Positions 1 to 30,279 of a DNA stretch of 36,247 bases are shown one piece after another. A program made the translations under genes and the position numbers. How positions within the stretch are numbered: position 1 is the stretch's first letter; each line of letters starts with the position of its first letter. The notes under the pieces are model-generated. The model did no database searches, had not been told where the DNA came from, and saw only the letters and a list, made by a program, of their open reading frames with translations. The DNA lies in assembly GCA_028285165.1 (NCBI GenBank), contig JANQQB010000374.1, forward strand, positions 1 through 36,247, in the 5' to 3' direction. Source of the DNA: Rhodobiaceae bacterium (lineage in GTDB: Bacteria; Pseudomonadota; Alphaproteobacteria; Rhizobiales; JANQQB01).

Positions 1-1303
1 CGAAGTGAAACCCTGCCGTTCCGTCTCCCATCAGGACGGCCACGGTCGCGTCCGGGCGGGCAATCTTCGCCGCGATGGCATAGGGCAGGCCGCCGCCGAT
101 CGCGCCGAGCGGTCCGTTAATCACACGGGTCGGTGCCGTACAGAATGCCTGGGCCCATTGGCCGAATTCGCCGCCGTCGCAGATCAGAATGGGATCGTCG
201 GCTTTGCCAAGCAGCGCATCGACGCGTTCACAGACACGGCGCGGGTCCGGTCGGCCATTGGTATTGCCGACGGCGCCTCGAAAGCCGATCGCCGAATGCA
301 CATCCGATGTCCATGACCCGGCCTCGGTCGGGGCGGCGGCAGCGGTCAGGGCATCGATCGCCGCCCGCGTGTCCGCCTGAATGGCCATGGCGAGGCGAGA
401 TCCGCCCAGCCGTCGGGACCGGTCGAGCGCGTCAATATCCGGGTCGATCGCAATGATGCGGGCATCGGCTGAAACAGCCGGGGGCTTTGCAAATCCGAGC
501 ATGAAGTCGAGCGGTTTGCCGAGACAGACCAGAAGGTCGGCCTTGGCAAGGCATTCGGAAAACACGCCGAGCGACGGGTCGCGCAGGCCGCGCGGACTTT
601 CCAGCGCGACGGCCGGTGCGCCGAACGCCCCTTCCAGGGCCGGGATCGCTTGCGGGTCCCGGCTTCTCGAATGCTGCGGTCCCAGCACCACAATCGGCCT
701 TTCCGCCGCGCCGATGGCATCGGCGATAGCTTTGGCGTCCGCGTCGGAAAGAGGATGGGTATCCGGTTCGAGATCCGCCGTATCGGGCAGGGCATTGCCG
801 GCATGTGGTCCCGTCAGGAGATCGAAGGGCAAGGCCAGATGGACCGGGCCCTTGCGGCCCGAACAGGCTGACTTCAGACAGGTCGCAAGGGCGCCGATCA
901 TCTCTTCGGAGCGTGTCGGCCGCAGCGCGGTCTTCACCGTCGGCGCCGTCATCGCCGTCTGGTCGAGTTCCTGGAAGGCGCCCGATCCGTCGCCCGAAAC
1001 CGGTGCATCACCGCTGATCAATAGGACCGGGCTTTCCGACTGGCGGGCCGAGGCAAGCGGCGACAGGCCGTTGGCAAAGCCGGGGCCGGCGGTCAGCAGC
1101 GCCACGCCGGTTTCGCTGGTCACCTGCGCCCAGGCCTCGGCCATGTAAACCGCGGCCGCTTCATGGCGGACATGCACGATACGGATTCCAGCATCGATGC
1201 AGGCATCGTAGATCGGCATGATCTGATTGCCGGAAAGGCTGAAGATAGTCCTCAGGCCGGAATGGGCGAGGGCTTGGGCGAGCGCGGCAGCGCCGGTGGT
1301 CAT
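1..1303 (-). CDS. Thiamine-diphosphate-dependent enzyme, acetolactate synthase/benzoylformate decarboxylase type (partial)
   Basis: The minus-strand frame starts at an ATG at 1303 and stays open to the left edge, giving 434 codons of a protein that is normally about 550 residues. The N-terminal Pyr domain has the usual Gly-rich start and the cofactor-activating glutamate (HEAAA, E48). Next comes a segment resembling the central domain. The TPP-binding motif begins at G426-D427-G428 (MGDGTAGF), just before the cut. AAGGGA lies a suitable distance upstream of the ATG. Members of this superfamily (COG0028) decarboxylate or condense 2-oxo acids with ThDP and magnesium. The substrate cannot be told from the visible part. 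Acetolactate synthase, benzoylformate decarboxylase and other 2-oxoacid decarboxylases are all possible, and no small regulatory subunit is visible. It is separated from the upstream molybdenum hydroxylase operon by a terminator, so it is probably transcribed alone. Confidence 0.85.
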   Translation of the reverse strand, partial: MTTGAAALAQALAHSGLRTIFSLSGNQIMPIYDACIDAGIRIVHVRHEAAAVYMAEAWAQVTSETGVALLTAGPGFANGLSPLASARQSESPVLLISGDAPVSGDGSGAFQELDQTAMTAPTVKTALRPTRSEEMIGALATCLKSACSGRKGPVHLALPFDLLTGPHAGNALPDTADLEPDTHPLSDADAKAIADAIGAAERPIVVLGPQHSRSRDPQAIPALEGAFGAPAVALESPRGLRDPSLGVFSECLAKADLLVCLGKPLDFMLGFAKPPAVSADARIIAIDPDIDALDRSRRLGGSRLAMAIQADTRAAIDALTAAAAPTEAGSWTSDVHSAIGFRGAVGNTNGRPDPRRVCERVDALLGKADDPILICDGGEFGQWAQAFCTAPTRVINGPLGAIGGGLPYAIAAKIARPDATVAVLMGDGTAGFHF

Positions 1304-1391
1304 GGCGGGATCCCTTTTGTCGGGTCCAGCAAACCAAATATCTTGAAAGAATCAAGTTAATTTTTTTTAGTTTAGAAAACTCAAATTAAAA
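1304..1391. promoter_or_regulatory. AT-rich upstream region of the ThDP enzyme with short inverted repeat
   Basis: This short gap is strikingly AT-rich for the window, with runs of T and A at 1357-1390. It lies between the terminator of the molybdenum hydroxylase operon and the ATG at 1303, so it should hold the promoter of the ThDP enzyme. An inverted repeat CTTGA-N5-TCAAG occupies 1342-1356. I could not assign convincing -35/-10 boxes, and the repeat is short enough to be chance. Confidence 0.3.
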
Positions 1392-1420
1392 CGGCGCGTG
1401 GCCGATCTCGCCACGCGCCG
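1392..1420 (-). terminator. Intrinsic terminator of the molybdenum hydroxylase operon
   Basis: An 11-bp perfect GC-rich stem (CGGCGCGTGGC with its complement) and a 7-nt loop lie about 40 nt after the large-subunit stop codon. Read on the minus strand, the stem is followed directly by TTTTAATTT, the usual form of a rho-independent terminator. It insulates the ThDP enzyme gene further downstream. Confidence 0.85.
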
Positions 1421-1461
1421 CAAAAGGGGTCGCCAGCACGATCCCCGATTGTCTTCTCAGA

Positions 1462-3636
1462 TCAGGCGAACTCGATGCCGTTTGCAGTCATGGGCAGCTT
1501 CGTCACCCACTGGCCGGTCGCGGCATGGATCGCATTGGCAAGGGCCGGACCTGAAGGCGGTGTGCCCGGTTCGCCGACACCGGTCGGCGCTTCGCTCGAG
1601 GGCACGATGTGCACCTCGATTGCCGCGATGTCGTTGATGCGCAAGGGCTCGTAATCCGGGAAGTTCGACTGATCGACTTCGCCGTCCGTCAGCGTGATCG
1701 CATCGCGCATGACGGCGCCGATTCCGTAACCGATACCGCCTTCCATCTGCGCCTTGATGACGTCCGGATTGACAGCCGTGCCGCAATCGACCGCGCAGGT
1801 CACTTTCTCGATCTTCACTGCGCCGTCCTGTGTCGAGACCTCGACGACTTCGGCCACATAGGAGTTGAAGGACTTGTGCACGGCGACGCCGCGCCCGCGA
1901 CCTTCCGGAAGCGCTTCGCCCCAGCCGGATTTTTCAGCGGCCAGTTTGAGGACGCCGGAAAGCCGTTGCTGGTCCTTGTCGCCGCCCGACAGGAGGCCGA
2001 GACGGAATTCCACCGGATCGGCGCCCGCGGCCTCGGCCGCCATATCGACCATGACTTCCATGGCGTAGGCCGTGTGTGTATGACCGACAGCTCGCCACCA
2101 CAGGACCGGCATCGGCGATTGGAAGTCGCTGAGCCCGACCGAAAACGCCGGGATCGCGTAATGCGAATCCGACACACCCTCGACGGACGTGTGGTCGATT
2201 CCCTCTTCCACAAGCACGCCTTCGAAGGGTGTGCCCTTGATGATCGACTTGGCGGCGATGCGGTGATCCCATCCGGTCAGCGCGTTTTGGTCGTCCAGGC
2301 CGACGCGAACCCGGTGAACGGCCATCGGCCTGTAATAGCCGCCGGCCAGATCATCTTCGCGGGTCCAGACGAGTTTGACGGGTGTCTGTCCACCGAGCAG
2401 CTGGAAGGCAAGCGCGGCTTCGACCTGATAGTCGGAAGTCGCTGTCGCCCGGCGTCCGAAGGATCCGCCGGCATAGACCGTATTGATCTCCACCTGATCG
2501 GGTTGGAGTTGCAACACACCGGCGATCGTCGGATGCGTGATGCCCGGGAATTGCGAGCCGTCGTGGACGCGCACGCCGGTTTCGGTCGGTTCGATCACGC
2601 AGTTCAGCGTTTCCATTGGCGCGTGGGCGAGGTTGGGGAAGTGGAATTCGGCCTCGACCGTCTTGGCTGACGCATCGATGGCGCTGCCGGTGGCCGCAAG
2701 ATCGGCCTCCTTGCGGGCCTGGAATTCCGGCTTGTCCAGAAGCGCGACATGGTCGGCGATCATCTGATCGGTCGACCGGCTCTCGGCTTTGCTCAGATCC
2801 CATTCGGCCGTGATGGCCTCGCGCGCCTGGATGGCGGCCCACGTGTTTTTTCCGAAGACCGCCACGCCTGCGCCGTTCGGCAGCGCCTTCGCTTCGACGA
2901 ACCCGGCGACGTCCGCCGCTCCGCTCGCGTCGAACGAAGACAGCGTGCCGCCGAAGCGCGGCGACCGCAGGATCACGGCGTAGACCATGCCCGGAACCTT
3001 GACATCGATCGCGAACTGCGCGGTGCCGTTGGTCTTGGAATAGGAATCCTTGCGCCGCAGGTCTTCCCGGCCGATCAGCTTGAATGCGTCGGCCGACTTC
3101 AGAACCGGTTCAGCCGGCGGGGTGAGCTTGGCGGCCGCGGCTGCCATGGCGCCGATCGGGGCCGATTTGTCGCCGGAGCGCAGCACGCCGTTTTCCACTG
3201 TGATCGACCCGGCGTCGACCCCCCATTCCTTGGCGGCGGCCTCGACCAGAACGGCGCGCGCGGCGGCCCCGGCCTTGCGGTATTGCATGTAGGAATTGGC
3301 GATTGCCGTCGAACCGCCGGTGCCCTGGGCACCGAATGCCAGATTGGCATAGCGTTCATTGTCCGACGGCGCGAACTCGATGGCGAGTGTGTCCCAGTCG
3401 GCGTCCAATTCCTCCGCGACCAGCGTCGCCAGGCCGGTCGTCGTGCCCTGGCCCATCTCGAAATGTTTGATAATGACGGAGACCGTGCCGTCGGCACTGA
3501 CCTTCACGAAGGGATTGAACTCAGCGCCCATGCGTCCGCCGGCGAGCACGCCGGCCGGCGTGAAGCCGACGACAAGGGCCGCGCCCGACGCCGCGGCGCC
3601 GGCCAGGAAAGACCGTCTCGTTGCTTGAAAGGTCAT
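1462..3636 (-). CDS. iorB: Molybdopterin-binding xanthine oxidase-family large subunit (isoquinoline 1-oxidoreductase beta-like)
   Basis: The protein is 724 residues, usual for the IorB/aldehyde dehydrogenase large subunit that binds the molybdenum cytosine dinucleotide cofactor. It begins with a twin-arginine signal (R7-R8-S9-F10-L11 then a hydrophobic stretch), so the holoenzyme is probably exported folded to the periplasm. Family landmarks include GGSFGRR, which contacts the cofactor, and the near-C-terminal GVGEPGTPPSGPAL, in which E689 matches the catalytic glutamate of molybdenum hydroxylases. The ATG at 3636 is chosen because the Tat signal follows it and GGAGG precedes it. The open frame continues upstream only because it crosses the small-subunit gene. 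It starts 2 nt after the small-subunit stop. The family hydroxylates N-heterocycles or oxidises aldehydes, and the substrate here is unknown. No cytochrome c electron-acceptor gene is next to it. Confidence 0.88.
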   Translation of the reverse strand: MTFQATRRSFLAGAAASGAALVVGFTPAGVLAGGRMGAEFNPFVKVSADGTVSVIIKHFEMGQGTTTGLATLVAEELDADWDTLAIEFAPSDNERYANLAFGAQGTGGSTAIANSYMQYRKAGAAARAVLVEAAAKEWGVDAGSITVENGVLRSGDKSAPIGAMAAAAAKLTPPAEPVLKSADAFKLIGREDLRRKDSYSKTNGTAQFAIDVKVPGMVYAVILRSPRFGGTLSSFDASGAADVAGFVEAKALPNGAGVAVFGKNTWAAIQAREAITAEWDLSKAESRSTDQMIADHVALLDKPEFQARKEADLAATGSAIDASAKTVEAEFHFPNLAHAPMETLNCVIEPTETGVRVHDGSQFPGITHPTIAGVLQLQPDQVEINTVYAGGSFGRRATATSDYQVEAALAFQLLGGQTPVKLVWTREDDLAGGYYRPMAVHRVRVGLDDQNALTGWDHRIAAKSIIKGTPFEGVLVEEGIDHTSVEGVSDSHYAIPAFSVGLSDFQSPMPVLWWRAVGHTHTAYAMEVMVDMAAEAAGADPVEFRLGLLSGGDKDQQRLSGVLKLAAEKSGWGEALPEGRGRGVAVHKSFNSYVAEVVEVSTQDGAVKIEKVTCAVDCGTAVNPDVIKAQMEGGIGYGIGAVMRDAITLTDGEVDQSNFPDYEPLRINDIAAIEVHIVPSSEAPTGVGEPGTPPSGPALANAIHAATGQWVTKLPMTANGIEFA

Positions 3637-7326: not shown

Positions 7327-8301
7327 CTATCGACCGTAGCGGTCGTCTTCCAACACCATCTGTCCGTAGCAATATCTTGAGTTGATTGGGGAGATGCTGT
7401 GATAGTCCTCACTCGGTTCCTGATTAAGAAAAAAAGCAGGGACGGCGCCTTCACCCGGCTCGTACTGAAACATAATATTGGAGCGGGAAAATCCCTCCTC
7501 GTCCCGCACATCCTGAGCAAAAACACACAGTTCAAGGGCGCTGGGGATATCGTACTCGTCCGCCCGATTGCAGGCCAGGACGGCGTTCCTCGTCGTGGCG
7601 GTAAGCCACAAACCGTCGAGTTTCAGTTCGTCAATGAACCAGTCGAGAAACAGCCGGGAGTCGAGGATGGCGGGCGCCAGACCGGGAAAGCCGGGCAGTG
7701 TGAACTGATAGATTTCGCTGTCGTCAGCTTTGGAGATCTCGATCTCGGGTTGGATGGCATCCACATTTTTCGCAGCGTTATCCCATGCCTCTTCCGGCGG
7801 TATCCCGTAATGGGCCAGCAGTCCGCGCTGGGCGCTGACGAAACGGTCCGGTGTTCGATATTGCAGAAACCAGACAAGGTCGCCGGCAAACGGGATGATG
7901 CGCTGACGAACAGCCAGGTGCGGGTCTTCCTCTCCCGCTCGAAGCGCATCTAAAAACGCAGCGGTCTCGCGGCCGAGCGATCTATAATGGCGGAGCACGG
8001 GATAGAACTGGTCGGGTTCGAACAACAGGTCGTCGAGCCCTGGCTTGAATTCCAGCACTTCGTTGAGGCGCCGTGCGATCTCGTCCGAATCGTCGGCCGC
8101 GCACAGGTAGTCGTAGGCGGGATGCAGGTCAACGCCGGCAAACGAGGTGTCGGTGCGCACAACGGTAAAGCCAAGCGATCCCACCGCATCCGGGACGACT
8201 GACTTCACGCGGGGATCGGACCGGTAATGGTCCATGACCCGTTTTCGAAACGTCCGACGGGAAGGCGCTTTACGGTTTTGGGTCGGGAAGCGAAGCAGCA
8301 T
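7327..8301 (-). CDS. DUF1444-like protein, paralogue 1
   Basis: The protein is 324 residues with no signal peptide or membrane segment. By eye it is a diverged homologue of its upstream neighbour. Shared landmarks are FAGDL[VI]W.LQ, a spaced A[FK].N[FV], the segment DD/DSE-VY.....FPG/DQ, the W(I/L).A.TR(N/D) strand and a C-terminal [RS][NR]I[MI]F(Q/E)Y element. The order 'DL...y.lD...G......A..N......TRD' resembles the DUF1444 (YtpQ) family, but the match is remote and function is unknown. The first ATG at 8301 lacks a good ribosome site, so the internal ATG of VMDHYRSD is an alternative start. It is second in a two-gene unit, 170 bp behind paralogue 2. An 11-kb neighbourhood search shows no toxin or secretion genes to explain it. 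Confidence 0.7.
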   Translation of the reverse strand: MLLRFPTQNRKAPSRRTFRKRVMDHYRSDPRVKSVVPDAVGSLGFTVVRTDTSFAGVDLHPAYDYLCAADDSDEIARRLNEVLEFKPGLDDLLFEPDQFYPVLRHYRSLGRETAAFLDALRAGEEDPHLAVRQRIIPFAGDLVWFLQYRTPDRFVSAQRGLLAHYGIPPEEAWDNAAKNVDAIQPEIEISKADDSEIYQFTLPGFPGLAPAILDSRLFLDWFIDELKLDGLWLTATTRNAVLACNRADEYDIPSALELCVFAQDVRDEEGFSRSNIMFQYEPGEGAVPAFFLNQEPSEDYHSISPINSRYCYGQMVLEDDRYGR

Positions 8302-8471: not shown

Positions 8472-9404
8472 TCAACTGCATAGGTCCGGTCGATGCTCGG
8501 CCCGGTAGGCCTCTATTGTCTCTTCCGGCAGGCAGTATTGCGCAACAAGCGGGCCGCCCTTCGAGTATTCGAAGATGATCCGGGATTGCGGTCGCGCCGC
8601 TTCGGCAAGCTGGGATTTCGCTAAATCCAGCAAGCCTTCGGGACCGCCGGCATCTGCCGCCTGATCCGCCAACAGCACATAATCCCGCGTTGGCGCGGCT
8701 ATCCAGATGCGCGCGAACCGATTTCGATCAAGGATGTGATCAAGCAGCCCGTCGCATCCCAACAGTGAAGCACCCAGGCCCTCCTGATCCGGAAAATGCA
8801 GCACATAGACATTGCTGTCATGCTGAAACAGTTCGACCTGGTGGGCGAGGGCCGCGAAATTGTCGAATGCCCGCTTCCAGGCTGTTTCAACGTCCATTCC
8901 GATGGAGTCCAGCGTCCATTTATAGACAAGGTGGTAATGATCCGGGGCGTCCAGTTGCAGCGACCAGATTAGGTCGCCGGCAAAATAACGCATGACGTGC
9001 TCAAGGTGCTTCTCAGGATGCGGATCCCTCTCCTCAATCAGCTTTGTATAGAGGGGCATCTCCCGCTCGAGGTAATGGTAATGACGCACCATCGGCAGGA
9101 AGCGTGCGGGATCGTAGTCGATCGTCTCATGGCCGGTGTAAGAGAATCGCTCCAGGCATTCGTCCAGCGTTATCTCGAACGCATGATCAGGCATCTCTCG
9201 TTCCGTCAGGATCAGGTAGGCGTTGAGGAGGTCGATCGTTCCGTGTCCTGCCGTCTTCAGGAAATAGTCGAATTTTAAGGGAGAATTCGGATCGGCCCGC
9301 ACGTCCCGAACCTCCGGCTTTTGCCGGAACCGGTCCATGAATAGCGCGCGGAGTCTTTCCTTCGAGATGCGTGGAACAAAGGAGGGCGTTGGGTCGTCTG
9401 ACAA
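8472..9404 (-). CDS. DUF1444-like protein, paralogue 2 (TTG start)
   Basis: From a TTG at 9404 the protein is 310 residues. The frame is open further back to a GTG at 9545, but a good promoter lies inside that extension with a predicted transcription start near 9461, so the GTG would not be transcribed from it. The TTG has GAGG five nt upstream and gives an N-terminus the same length as paralogue 1 (FMDRFRQKPEVRDV against VMDHYRSDPRVKSV). Shared segments include RYFAGDLIWSLQLDAPDHY, IWIAAPTRDYVLLAD and SRIIFEYSKGGPLVAQYCL. The last two strands, with the TRD motif, are the most DUF1444-like part. It has no signal peptide and its function is unknown. Confidence 0.7.
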   Translation of the reverse strand: MSDDPTPSFVPRISKERLRALFMDRFRQKPEVRDVRADPNSPLKFDYFLKTAGHGTIDLLNAYLILTEREMPDHAFEITLDECLERFSYTGHETIDYDPARFLPMVRHYHYLEREMPLYTKLIEERDPHPEKHLEHVMRYFAGDLIWSLQLDAPDHYHLVYKWTLDSIGMDVETAWKRAFDNFAALAHQVELFQHDSNVYVLHFPDQEGLGASLLGCDGLLDHILDRNRFARIWIAAPTRDYVLLADQAADAGGPEGLLDLAKSQLAEAARPQSRIIFEYSKGGPLVAQYCLPEETIEAYRAEHRPDLCS

Positions 9405-9467
9405 GGAAACCTCGCAGGCGGGCTCGATGGGAGAAAAGGTTGTGTGATTCCGATATGCAATTCCAGA

Positions 9468-9496
9468 TTTATATATGGCTGCGCAGGTTGCATCAA
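9468..9496 (-). promoter_or_regulatory. Sigma-70-type promoter for the DUF1444-like pair
   Basis: On the minus strand TTGATG (9496-9491) is separated by exactly 17 nt from TATAAA (9473-9468). Both are close to the housekeeping consensus and lie in a local AT-rich island. The predicted start near 9461 leaves a leader of about 57 nt to the TTG start codon at 9404. Confidence 0.65.
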
Positions 9497-9661
9497 GAGT
9501 GAAATGAAGGGTCGGGGCTAAATCAGCCTCACAAGGCGTTGGCACACGCCGTTACAGCGGCCCGTCGGACCTTGTCGTTCCGGGACAGCAGACAACGCGC
9601 GCAGAATCTGAAACTGCAAAAGGTGTGAACGTTGGCGCTCGGCTTCCGAACTGGCCTGTGA

Positions 9662-27472: not shown

Positions 27473-28110
27473 GTCTCCCTCATGCCTTTGTTGGGGCGGG
27501 ATTTCCAGCGCCCGGATTGGTGCGTCAACTTAGCTGCATTCCAGACAGGGTGACCACTCAAATGTCGGTCAGGGTTAAGGCCGGTTGCGGTGACGCGGGT
27601 TTGGTTTCGCATTACCCGCGAGGAAGATATTTTAAGCTTAAAGTAATTGTCAAGGAAATGCGACGGGCAATCCCAAGGCTTCGGACGAACTGCGGCCCGG
27701 TGTGCGGCCTCGGGGCGACTTTCACTGTCAGGAGCGCAGACCGTGCCCTCTGTCTCGCAGCGATCCGTTGTCCAAGCGTCTCAGTGTCATTGTGGAGATC
27801 GAAGGGCTCGAAGGATGCAGACGTCAAAAACGAACTAATCCGGCAGATCTCGTTAGAAAAAGGAGAAAAACTTGGGAATTTTATGAATGTTCGAATGGTT
27901 TGCCGCAAAATAGCAATCTGTTAACCGTTTGCCCGGCAACTATTCCTGGTTGGTAGTAAATTGCATCCGGGCCGGTGGACAACGATATCGGTTTCGATAG
28001 GGAGCCCGGGGCAATTCTCCACACGGCGAGCACGCGCAAGGGCCGTCTTGCCGCTGCGAACGATAACCTGGCGGCTTGAGTGAGCGGCCGGATTTGCCAT
28101 GAGGGAAGCC
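27473..28110. other. Intergenic region, 638 bp, between livK and the unknown tandem family
   Basis: The left part is the leader and promoter of livK (predicted start near 27617). The right part should hold the promoter of the plus-strand gene at 28111. It contains an AT-rich patch around 27840-27960, but I could not assign firm boxes. Short frames here have no ribosome site at correct spacing. The tiny frame at 27884 (13 codons) has AAGGAG too far upstream to be convincing. Confidence 0.4.
27624..27653 (-). promoter_or_regulatory. livK promoter with palindromic operator in the spacer
   Basis: On the minus strand a perfect TTGACA (27653-27648) is followed after 18 nt by TATCTT (27629-27624). 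The spacer contains the perfect 12-bp palindrome TTTAAGCTTAAA (27642-27631). A protein bound there would block RNA polymerase, so the importer is probably repressed until needed. The -10 box is only a partial match. Confidence 0.55.
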
Positions 28111-29010
28111 ATGTCCACCGCCCCGATGCGTTCGGCGATTCGAGTCCTGTCCAATTCCCCCGTTGTGGAAAGGATCGCACGCCGTCCCGAAACCAACAAA
28201 ATCCAGGTCGTCTGCAACGAGGTGTCCGGCAATACGCAATCGGTCGAAGACGTCGTCAAAATGCTGAATTACTATTTCGGCAAGGCCTACAACGTACCCG
28301 ACGCATTGGAATTTGTTCAATCCGCAGGCGGGTCGACCGCTGGCGGAAAAAACTGTTATTATATAAGTAGTTATAACTGTCTCGGAACGCGATTGCTGCG
28401 CGCGGAGATTGCCAGCGACTTCGCAAGAAAGACCCATCCCGGCTCGGTATCCGAGCTTCTTGCGGAAATCGAACTGCTGTGCCTGGAAAGCGCCAAGGAT
28501 TTCCTGTCTTTGCAAAGGTCGAGCGGACGCAAGTCGAACAGGGCGGTGGTCGAATTCGACTATACGAACATCCGCGATCTCCTGCTGTTCCATGAGTATG
28601 AAAGCCGATTGCGCTCCCTGCCTGCGCCGGTCGCAAGGCAGCTCGACGTGTCGCTGGCGCGGATCAGACCGGCCACCAGGACCGAGGACATCAATGCAAT
28701 CCTGAACCACCTGGCCGCCATACAGCCCGCACCGGGCATCTCGGTGGACTATGACGAAAACCTGCATTTCATCGAGGACATGCTCAATACCGAGGCCAAG
28801 AAGATGTACGTCACCATGGATGTCCAAAAAGTCGGCAACATCGGCGACGTATTGCAGACGCAGAACTACATCCAGGAATCAGCCCCAACTAAGAGGGTCT
28901 ACTTTGTATTGAAGAACCTCGATGCCAATTCCCGGATGCGATATCAGAAGGATCCCGATGCGTTCCTGTTTCTGGGACGTCATAGGGTCGACAAAGTAAG
29001 TCCGATGTAA
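28111..29010 (+). CDS. Unrecognised protein family, tandem copy 1
   Basis: The protein is 299 residues with no signal peptide, membrane segment or motif I recognise. It is clearly a paralogue of the next gene: 27 of the first 34 residues are identical by eye (APMRS-IRVLS-SPVVERI, then PETN-IQVV). Conservation continues in E-ELLCLE-AK-F, VEFDYTNIRD, VSLARIRP, a Y-NL-F-E-LL region, AKK-YVTMD--K-GN-GD and the C-terminal FLF-GR. The ATG at 28111 is chosen over 28099 because copy 2 starts at the equivalent MSAAPMRS and GAGGGA lies just before it. The fold appears mixed alpha/beta and cytoplasmic. It lies between an importer and the benzoate operon, with no evident operon partner except its copy. 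Confidence 0.75.
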   Translation: MSTAPMRSAIRVLSNSPVVERIARRPETNKIQVVCNEVSGNTQSVEDVVKMLNYYFGKAYNVPDALEFVQSAGGSTAGGKNCYYISSYNCLGTRLLRAEIASDFARKTHPGSVSELLAEIELLCLESAKDFLSLQRSSGRKSNRAVVEFDYTNIRDLLLFHEYESRLRSLPAPVARQLDVSLARIRPATRTEDINAILNHLAAIQPAPGISVDYDENLHFIEDMLNTEAKKMYVTMDVQKVGNIGDVLQTQNYIQESAPTKRVYFVLKNLDANSRMRYQKDPDAFLFLGRHRVDKVSPM

Positions 29011-29391
29011 CGCATCTCCGCGAGGTCGATACCGCATGTTCCGATCGTGGCGCATCGTCCATGGTTTGCCCGGGCTCTTGGGCGCGTATCAATCCGTGTC
29101 CGCGATCCGTTCGGTGATCGTGAAAAGACCGAAACAAGATGACCGGCCCTCGGGGAATCCGAGCGACGATCTATCGTTGAATTGTGATCAAGATACTCGC
29201 TCAGGTTACATCTATTGTAAATTTTTAAGAAAGACCGTTATAGGATCACGCCACTTCGAGGGGAGCGCATGCCCTGGATGCGCTGGAATGGGGATTTCTG
29301 CTGGAATTCGAACGACACTCCGGGAAATGCTACCGGGAATTGGCGTCTGGTCTGCCGAGTGAGAGCACTTAAGGGCAGCCAAGGAGGGACA
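29011..29391. other. Intergenic region, 381 bp, between the two tandem copies
   Basis: No gene or clear remnant of a third copy was found. A candidate promoter for copy 2 is TTGTAA (29215-29220), 17 nt, then TTATAG (29238-29243) in an AT-rich island, giving a leader of about 140 nt. A short CTCGG-N5-CCGAG hairpin near 29149 is too weak to call a terminator of copy 1. Confidence 0.4.
29215..29243 (+). promoter_or_regulatory. Candidate promoter of tandem copy 2
   Basis: TTGTAA and TTATAG are separated by 17 nt inside the only AT-rich stretch before the gene. Each is a partial match to the sigma-70 consensus. It implies that copy 2 can be expressed separately from copy 1. Confidence 0.4.
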
Positions 29392-30279
29392 ATGTCTGCT
29401 GCGCCCATGCGCTCTGTCATCCGTGTGTTGTCTGACTCTCCGGTCGTAGAGCGCATATCGCACGTGCCGGAGACCAATCGCATACAGGTTGTCTACAAGA
29501 GGCAAGCGAAGAACACCGACTCCGTCAAAGACGTGGTCGATATGCTGAACTTCTACTTCGAGAAGCTTTTCAATACGCCGGAGGCGCTGGAATTCGTCTG
29601 CGAGACCGATTGCGCCAACAAGCCGGAAAAGAAGCGCTATTATATCAACACGTTCGCCGGGCGTGGCAGCCGTCTCTTCCGGATCGACATTCAGCAGGAT
29701 TTTGTGCTCAAGGGCGACTATTACGAATCGTCGAAGGAACTCGTCGATGTCGAATTGCTGTGCCTGGAAAACGCCAAGACATTCATCATCAAGGAACTCG
29801 GGTCCGGTGGATCGAAAAAGCGCGCGATCATCGAGTTCAACTATGCGAATGTTCAGGACCCATTGCTGTCGAGAAAATATGAGATGAGTTTTCGCGACAT
29901 GCCCAATTCAATTGTCGAGAATGCCGAGATTTCGCTGGCGCGGATCAAGCCGACTTTGAGTGTCGAAGAGATCAACAGGGCCATAGTGCATGCATCCGCC
30001 ACGCGGGCCGACCCTAATCTTTCCGTGTTTTACGACAAGAATCTCGACTTCGTCGAAAAGCTGCTGCGGACCGACGCCAAGAAGCTGTTTGTCACGATGG
30101 ACTTCAAGAAGATCGGCAATCTGGGCGATCTTAGACAGACCCAGAAACACATCAGGGACAATGCCGGCGAGACGGAAGTGTACTTCGTTATGAGGAATGT
30201 CGAGCCCAGCGACCGGCCGACCTTCGAGATCGATACGGACAACTTTCTGTTCTACGGGCGCCAGATGATCGAGTACTGA
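29392..30279 (+). CDS. Unrecognised protein family, tandem copy 2
   Basis: The protein is 295 residues, the same family and almost the same length as copy 1. A strong ribosome site (AAGGAGG, 5 nt before the ATG at 29392) fixes the start. Longer frames upstream have no ribosome site. Compared with copy 1 the N-terminus and the C-terminal third are best conserved (AKKLFVTMDFKKIGNLGDL, then VYFVMRNVE and FLFYGR), while the middle is more divergent and more charged (KPEKKRYYINT, KELGSGGSKKR). No catalytic motif or membrane segment is evident. It ends 82 bp from the convergent alpha/beta hydrolase gene, where a CATCCGG/CCGGATG repeat (30323-30354) could be a weak terminator. Confidence 0.78.
   Translation: MSAAPMRSVIRVLSDSPVVERISHVPETNRIQVVYKRQAKNTDSVKDVVDMLNFYFEKLFNTPEALEFVCETDCANKPEKKRYYINTFAGRGSRLFRIDIQQDFVLKGDYYESSKELVDVELLCLENAKTFIIKELGSGGSKKRAIIEFNYANVQDPLLSRKYEMSFRDMPNSIVENAEISLARIKPTLSVEEINRAIVHASATRADPNLSVFYDKNLDFVEKLLRTDAKKLFVTMDFKKIGNLGDLRQTQKHIRDNAGETEVYFVMRNVEPSDRPTFEIDTDNFLFYGRQMIEY

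Follow-up and report, generated by a model that had tools for sequence, protein, structure and literature searches.

A tandem pair of divergent proteins in a Rhodobiaceae genome, most likely degenerate EAL-like pseudo-enzymes

The tandem gene pair and its third paralogue

The window, that is, the whole stretch of 36,247 nucleotides analysed here from a Rhodobiaceae bacterium, carries two intact, adjacent open reading frames, each preceded by a Shine-Dalgarno-like sequence (Table 1), whose products align without gaps over 294 residues at 47% identity (BLASTP, E 1e-98). The tandem paralogous pair proposed in the original prediction is therefore real, and the count of 27 identical residues among the first 34 given there is correct. 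Non-synonymous divergence between the two genes amounts to 0.35 per site against a (saturated) synonymous divergence of 0.75, a ratio of about half, which argues for protein-level constraint on both paralogues and against the alternative, raised at the outset, that they are pseudogenes; both look functional as genes. The further proposal that the two genes are differentially expressed was not borne out, promoter and terminator scans of the gap between them having returned nothing exceeding chance, and independent expression of the two is plausible.

Table 1. Coordinates of the gene pair and of its predicted domains in the window.
Feature	Coordinates	Strand	Description	Evidence
Paralogue 1	28111..29010	+	299 aa, putative degenerate EAL-like protein; stop codon included	Intact ORF and RBS; AF2 model, Foldseek EAL matches
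Paralogue 2	29392..30279	+	295 aa, putative degenerate EAL-like protein; stop codon included	Intact ORF and RBS; AF2 model, Foldseek EAL matches
Shine-Dalgarno-like GAGGGA of paralogue 1	28101..28106	+		Sequence reading
Shine-Dalgarno-like AAGGAGGG of paralogue 2	29381..29388	+		Sequence reading
Intergenic gap	29011..29391	+	381 bp	Promoter/terminator: none above chance
Paralogue 1, N-terminal segment	28111..28353	+	Residues 1-81	Predicted alpha-beta-beta-alpha-beta, pLDDT 40-65
Paralogue 1, predicted EAL-like TIM barrel	28354..28992	+	Residues 82-294	pLDDT, EAL strand order, Foldseek, degenerate-family profile match
Paralogue 2, N-terminal segment	29392..29634	+	Residues 1-81	AF2 model; no GGDEF sequence signal
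Paralogue 2, predicted EAL-like TIM barrel	29635..30273	+	Residues 82-294	AF2 model, Foldseek, own profile match at 29713-29946

A third copy of 294 residues, 35% identical to paralogue 2, is encoded on a different contig of the host genome (G000:C165:386-1267, minus strand; genome of 5.9 Mb in 508 contigs), and the three proteins are referred to below as the trio. Of the two terminal blocks that had been thought to be under strong constraint, the N-terminal one is retained in the third copy (20-22 of 35 residues) and the C-terminal one is lost: where the pair carries AKKxxVTMDxxKxGNxGD, the third copy reads ASRVFVAIDFKRIQDEKT, so that the block supposed to form a C-terminal active site varies within the trio. 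The G+C content of the three genes (48-54%) lies below that of four neighbouring genes (60-64%), and their GC3 is likewise under that of the neighbouring genes in the window, possibly a sign of acquired or relaxed genes.

All neighbours of the pair lie on the opposite strand and encode BoxB (TIGR03225), benzoate-CoA ligase (TIGR02262), an alpha/beta hydrolase and an ABC importer, whereas the third copy adjoins genes for carboxynorspermidine decarboxylase and synthase. Because the paralogues thus adjoin different pathways, a pathway link was rejected, and a functional connection to benzoate degradation or polyamine synthesis was dropped for want of evidence. That benzoate and importer genes lie next to the pair is probably incidental, in agreement with the earlier suggestion that the placement of the pair between an importer and a benzoate operon may be chance.

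Database searches and distribution

Profile libraries (Pfam, NCBIfam and PHROGs) returned only chance-level matches for the trio; the Pfam model of EAL (PF00563), a phosphodiesterase domain that breaks down cyclic-di-GMP, matched none of the three proteins at E <= 10, and hence none above its gathering cut-off, and sequence searches of the PDB gave no significant match. A profile of the trio found nothing in 397 other genomes of the order, none of which belongs to the same genus or family, and a sample of about 1,000 relatives yielded no close one. Scans for short patterns across 85,000 species genomes, together with genome, viral contig and plasmid scans, also detected no relative, although the contig scans depend on near-exact short peptides and so exclude close relatives only. 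One weak match to the trio profile, in G511, was discarded, the protein that contains it being OmpA-like in look and devoid of EAL features. As far as tested, the trio is confined, at its own level of similarity, to one genome. The description of an unrecognised, well-conserved family accordingly stands as regards the profile libraries, but its conservation extends only across this genome.

A sequence chain to GGDEF-EAL proteins

When the trio profile was run against a class-wide sample, two orthologous proteins of 401-402 residues from one genus (L006 and L007) were recovered at E 1.8e-5 and 1.4e-4, and these in turn match Pfam EAL at E 1.3e-5 and 1.2e-3, under the curated cut-off. A profile of L006 and L007 led to three further relatives, and the resulting five-member profile, built without the trio, found matches in 19 genomes in an order-wide scan, the host included, where it recovered paralogue 2 (29713-29946) at E 6.7e-4. 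Besides the host, these genomes comprise nine with ordinary GGDEF proteins as judged by motif (L040-L043, L045, L048, L050-L052), one with an ordinary GGDEF-EAL protein by Pfam (L046) and eight with members of the degenerate family, two of which are only about 245 residues long.

A profile of eleven degenerate family members (L006, L007 and L031-L039; 378-603 residues; trio excluded) scored 31.6, 16.2 and 11.4 bits against the three proteins, and in each case none of 3000 shuffles scored as well. HHalign comparison of this family gave a probability of 91% (E 1e-6) with the trio and of 98.7% (E 3.2e-16, 360 columns) with the canonical GGDEF-EAL proteins of the host. Within the trio, only the barrel half gives this signal; for that half of paralogue 1, none of 2000 shuffles did as well. 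Direct HHalign comparison of the trio with the EAL domains of the host yielded only E 0.15-0.18, and HMM scores fell within the shuffle range, so that the argument depends on the intermediates. Read through them, the profile alignments establish the trio as distant members of a degenerate GGDEF-EAL set of Alphaproteobacteria.

The eleven intermediates are the closest sequence relatives of the trio and had previously gone unflagged. L006 and L007, although only 18-19% identical to the pair, share with the trio a strand-4 L[AV]R[IV] in place of LEITE, the N, Y and P positions in and after strand 3, and a start reading MSxAP. Unlike in the trio, the N-terminal region of most of the eleven is longer and can be aligned with GGDEF domains; two (L036 and L038) carry receiver domains, and one covers most of the Pfam EAL model yet scores under the cut-off.

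Predicted fold

The AF2 model of paralogue 1, computed from an alignment of the three paralogues only, has a mean pLDDT of 77, with values of about 90 across most of the barrel (about 81-94 for most of residues 81-290, low near 101-120), and its order of strands and helices is that of a TIM-like barrel, as in EAL domains. In Foldseek searches of the PDB, the best 20 matches of this model were all EAL or GGDEF-EAL proteins, at probabilities of 0.99-1.00, among them LapD (6pwk, E 4.6e-6), FimX (4fok, E 7e-6) and YdiV (3tlq, E 1e-3). The model of paralogue 2, built on a different alignment, gave 34 top matches that all contain EAL (best E 3.9e-6), and ordinary TIM barrels ranked later and weaker in both lists; the underlying alignments are shallow (3-5 rows) and the TM-scores moderate (0.4-0.5). 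An EAL-type barrel is therefore a feature of both paralogues by prediction only, and, taken together with the sequence chain, EAL-like fold and ancestry of the proteins appear very probable. The notion of an unknown fold is displaced by these models, and that of an unknown family by models and profile chain alike, since both lead to EAL or GGDEF-EAL proteins, the kind of match that the original prediction had itself named as counting against it.

The first 80 or so residues are less readily placed. Foldseek alignments to the GGDEF-EAL part of LapD span about 295 columns, yet residues 1-82 carry no sequence signal above shuffles. The reading of residues 1-80 as a C-terminal GGDEF half found no support from sequence comparison; a GGDEF remnant in this segment is a possibility and would fit the span of the Foldseek alignments. 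It is here, rather than in the barrel, that the best-conserved stretch among the three proteins lies.

Active-site residues

Residues were mapped transitively onto a canonical protein of the host by way of the intermediates, with a register that may be off by a few residues in strands 2, 3, 5 and 6 and by 1-2 residues at some positions. In this mapping the Glu of the EAL motif is replaced by N, A and T in the three copies, the Glu of EITE by S throughout, the catalytic Lys by Y, F and F (T, T and A in the adjacent register), the first Glu of EGVE by K, R and M, and the Gln of QGY by L, Y and T; the second Glu of EGVE (D, E and E) and the Gly of QGY are kept, and the positions of DDFG, KID and EGVE that line the site are replaced. 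Alternative registers could restore the strand-3 Asn (that of VNLS, in two copies) and the strand-5 Asp, though not the catalytic set. The mapped catalytic and metal-binding positions thus appear to be replaced, except where strands 3 and 5 leave doubt. Compared with Pfam EAL phosphodiesterases, the trio would share fold and strand order, as predicted, but has neither the mapped catalytic residues nor a Pfam score. Because the residues of EAL, EITE, DDFG, LKID, EGVE and QGY are lost in the alignment, hydrolysis of c-di-GMP is not expected, and the trio is almost certainly devoid of phosphodiesterase activity. The C-terminal block, taken in the original prediction for a possible active site, corresponds to the LKID strand, which has no catalytic Lys in any of the three copies and is itself lost in the third paralogue.

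The ExLxR motif, described in a review as determinative for binding (PMC10333796), has lost its Glu in all three copies, and its Arg is gone too (T, S and L) in the profile-based register. R97 of an 'LLR' that follows the EAL position is invariant in the trio and may correspond to this Arg, in which case there may be room for ligand binding.

Proposed function and alternatives

The explanation that best accommodates these observations, and which is judged probable, is that the pair and the third copy are catalytically dead EAL-like proteins that would work as regulators through protein contact, each consisting of a degenerate barrel (about residues 82-294) behind an 80-residue N-terminal segment. 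By analogy with YdiV and STM1697, the barrel would bind another protein and thereby control it, the partner being for instance a transcription factor or a component of motility or biofilm formation, and the copies would differ in partner or in the timing of expression. The narrower claim that such a contact regulator does not bind c-di-GMP, drawn from the same analogy, has slightly better than even prospects. The host has c-di-GMP signalling, since 18 of its EAL proteins exceed the Pfam cut-off, and motility is a possible target because it has flagellin genes.

Precedents exist in enterobacteria. In YdiV, 8 of the 10 catalytic residues are missing, and the protein binds FlhD4C2 but not c-di-GMP (PMC3510510); two EAL-like proteins of 29% identity work together in Salmonella (PMC10100727). 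A review describes cases of this kind as an accelerated evolution of signature motifs by comparison with the domain (PMC10333796). As enterobacterial anti-FlhD4C2 proteins, YdiV (STM1344) and STM1697 resemble the trio in being small and soluble, in having more than one paralogue per genome and in an EAL barrel without catalytic residues, which in the trio is a matter of model and alignment; YdiV is also among the structural matches of paralogue 1, somewhat lower than LapD and FimX. In contrast to these EAL-only proteins, the trio has an N-terminal extension of about 80 residues that is shared by the three copies and conserved among them, is more divergent, with no Pfam EAL score, and is alphaproteobacterial.

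The chief rival, rather unlikely in our estimation, is that the proteins are degenerate EAL receptors which bind but do not hydrolyse c-di-GMP or another nucleotide and signal by a change of shape, as LapD and FimX do. That these two non-catalytic proteins, both of whose catalytic domains are degenerate, are the best structural matches and rank above active enzymes is in keeping with such a role, as are the invariant R97 and the wealth of c-di-GMP enzymes in the host. Against it stand the losses in ExLxR, DDFG, KID and EGVE described above. LapD and FimX differ from the trio, which has no detectable GGDEF sequence, in that their GGDEF domain is still recognisable and their c-di-GMP site is kept; LapD has HAMP and periplasmic parts besides.

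TIM barrels often switch function, and new enzymes with a repurposed active site on the EAL scaffold could explain why Y214, D215 and D237 are invariant across the trio; this reading is nonetheless quite improbable, as the C-terminal ends of the barrel strands show no recognisable group of invariant polar residues that would make up for the loss, and conservation is strongest outside the barrel. Least probable of all is an unrelated fold, the EAL match being spurious because AlphaFold had guessed a common barrel: shallow alignments, TM-scores of about 0.45-0.5 and the lack of a direct EAL sequence match would fit it, but the two models, each with its own query and alignment, both place EAL ahead of all other TIM barrels, and the independent sequence chain arrives at the same family. 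Altogether, the pair is real and unrecognised by the libraries yet explicable, most likely as divergent EAL-like pseudo-enzymes rather than a wholly new kind of protein. What had been an unknown family thereby becomes a named hypothesis, that of dead EAL domains which have been retained and duplicated to serve as regulators, and known chemistry is unchanged by the finding.

Degenerate relatives and other loci

The proteins L006, L007, L031-L039, L044 and L047 are scattered in Alphaproteobacteria and all fall below the Pfam EAL cut-off, and the degenerate GGDEF-EAL group is probably under-counted in c-di-GMP censuses. Tandem copies recur, since L033, from an unrelated genome, carries two degenerate GGDEF-EAL-like ORFs side by side (2-1099 and 1189-2748, both on the minus strand). 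In L032, a degenerate GGDEF-EAL gene (610-2076, minus strand) is divergent from a FliG-like (flagellar motor switch) gene (2162-3214, plus strand), an arrangement that hints at a link to motility. L044 and L047 encode a degenerate EAL-only protein of 244-245 residues between methyltransferase-like and uvrB-like genes in two genomes of one genus. That the trio and these relatives belong to one widespread pseudo-enzyme family of Alphaproteobacteria that has moved past c-di-GMP chemistry to one common new regulatory mechanism, in which the N-terminal segment of the trio would confer specificity, is a speculative and on balance unlikely extension.

One of the 18 EAL proteins of the host (L026; G000:C214:8488-9189) is itself degenerate, with SIDQIRDL replacing the DDFG region, and resembles TipF, its N-terminus having membrane and coiled-coil parts. 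The window also contains a second tandem paralogous pair (7327-8301 and 8472-9545, both on the minus strand), 28% identical over 290 residues (BLASTP, E 3e-31), which has no Pfam match and shares the core 'FAGDLxWxLQ...PDxF/Y'.
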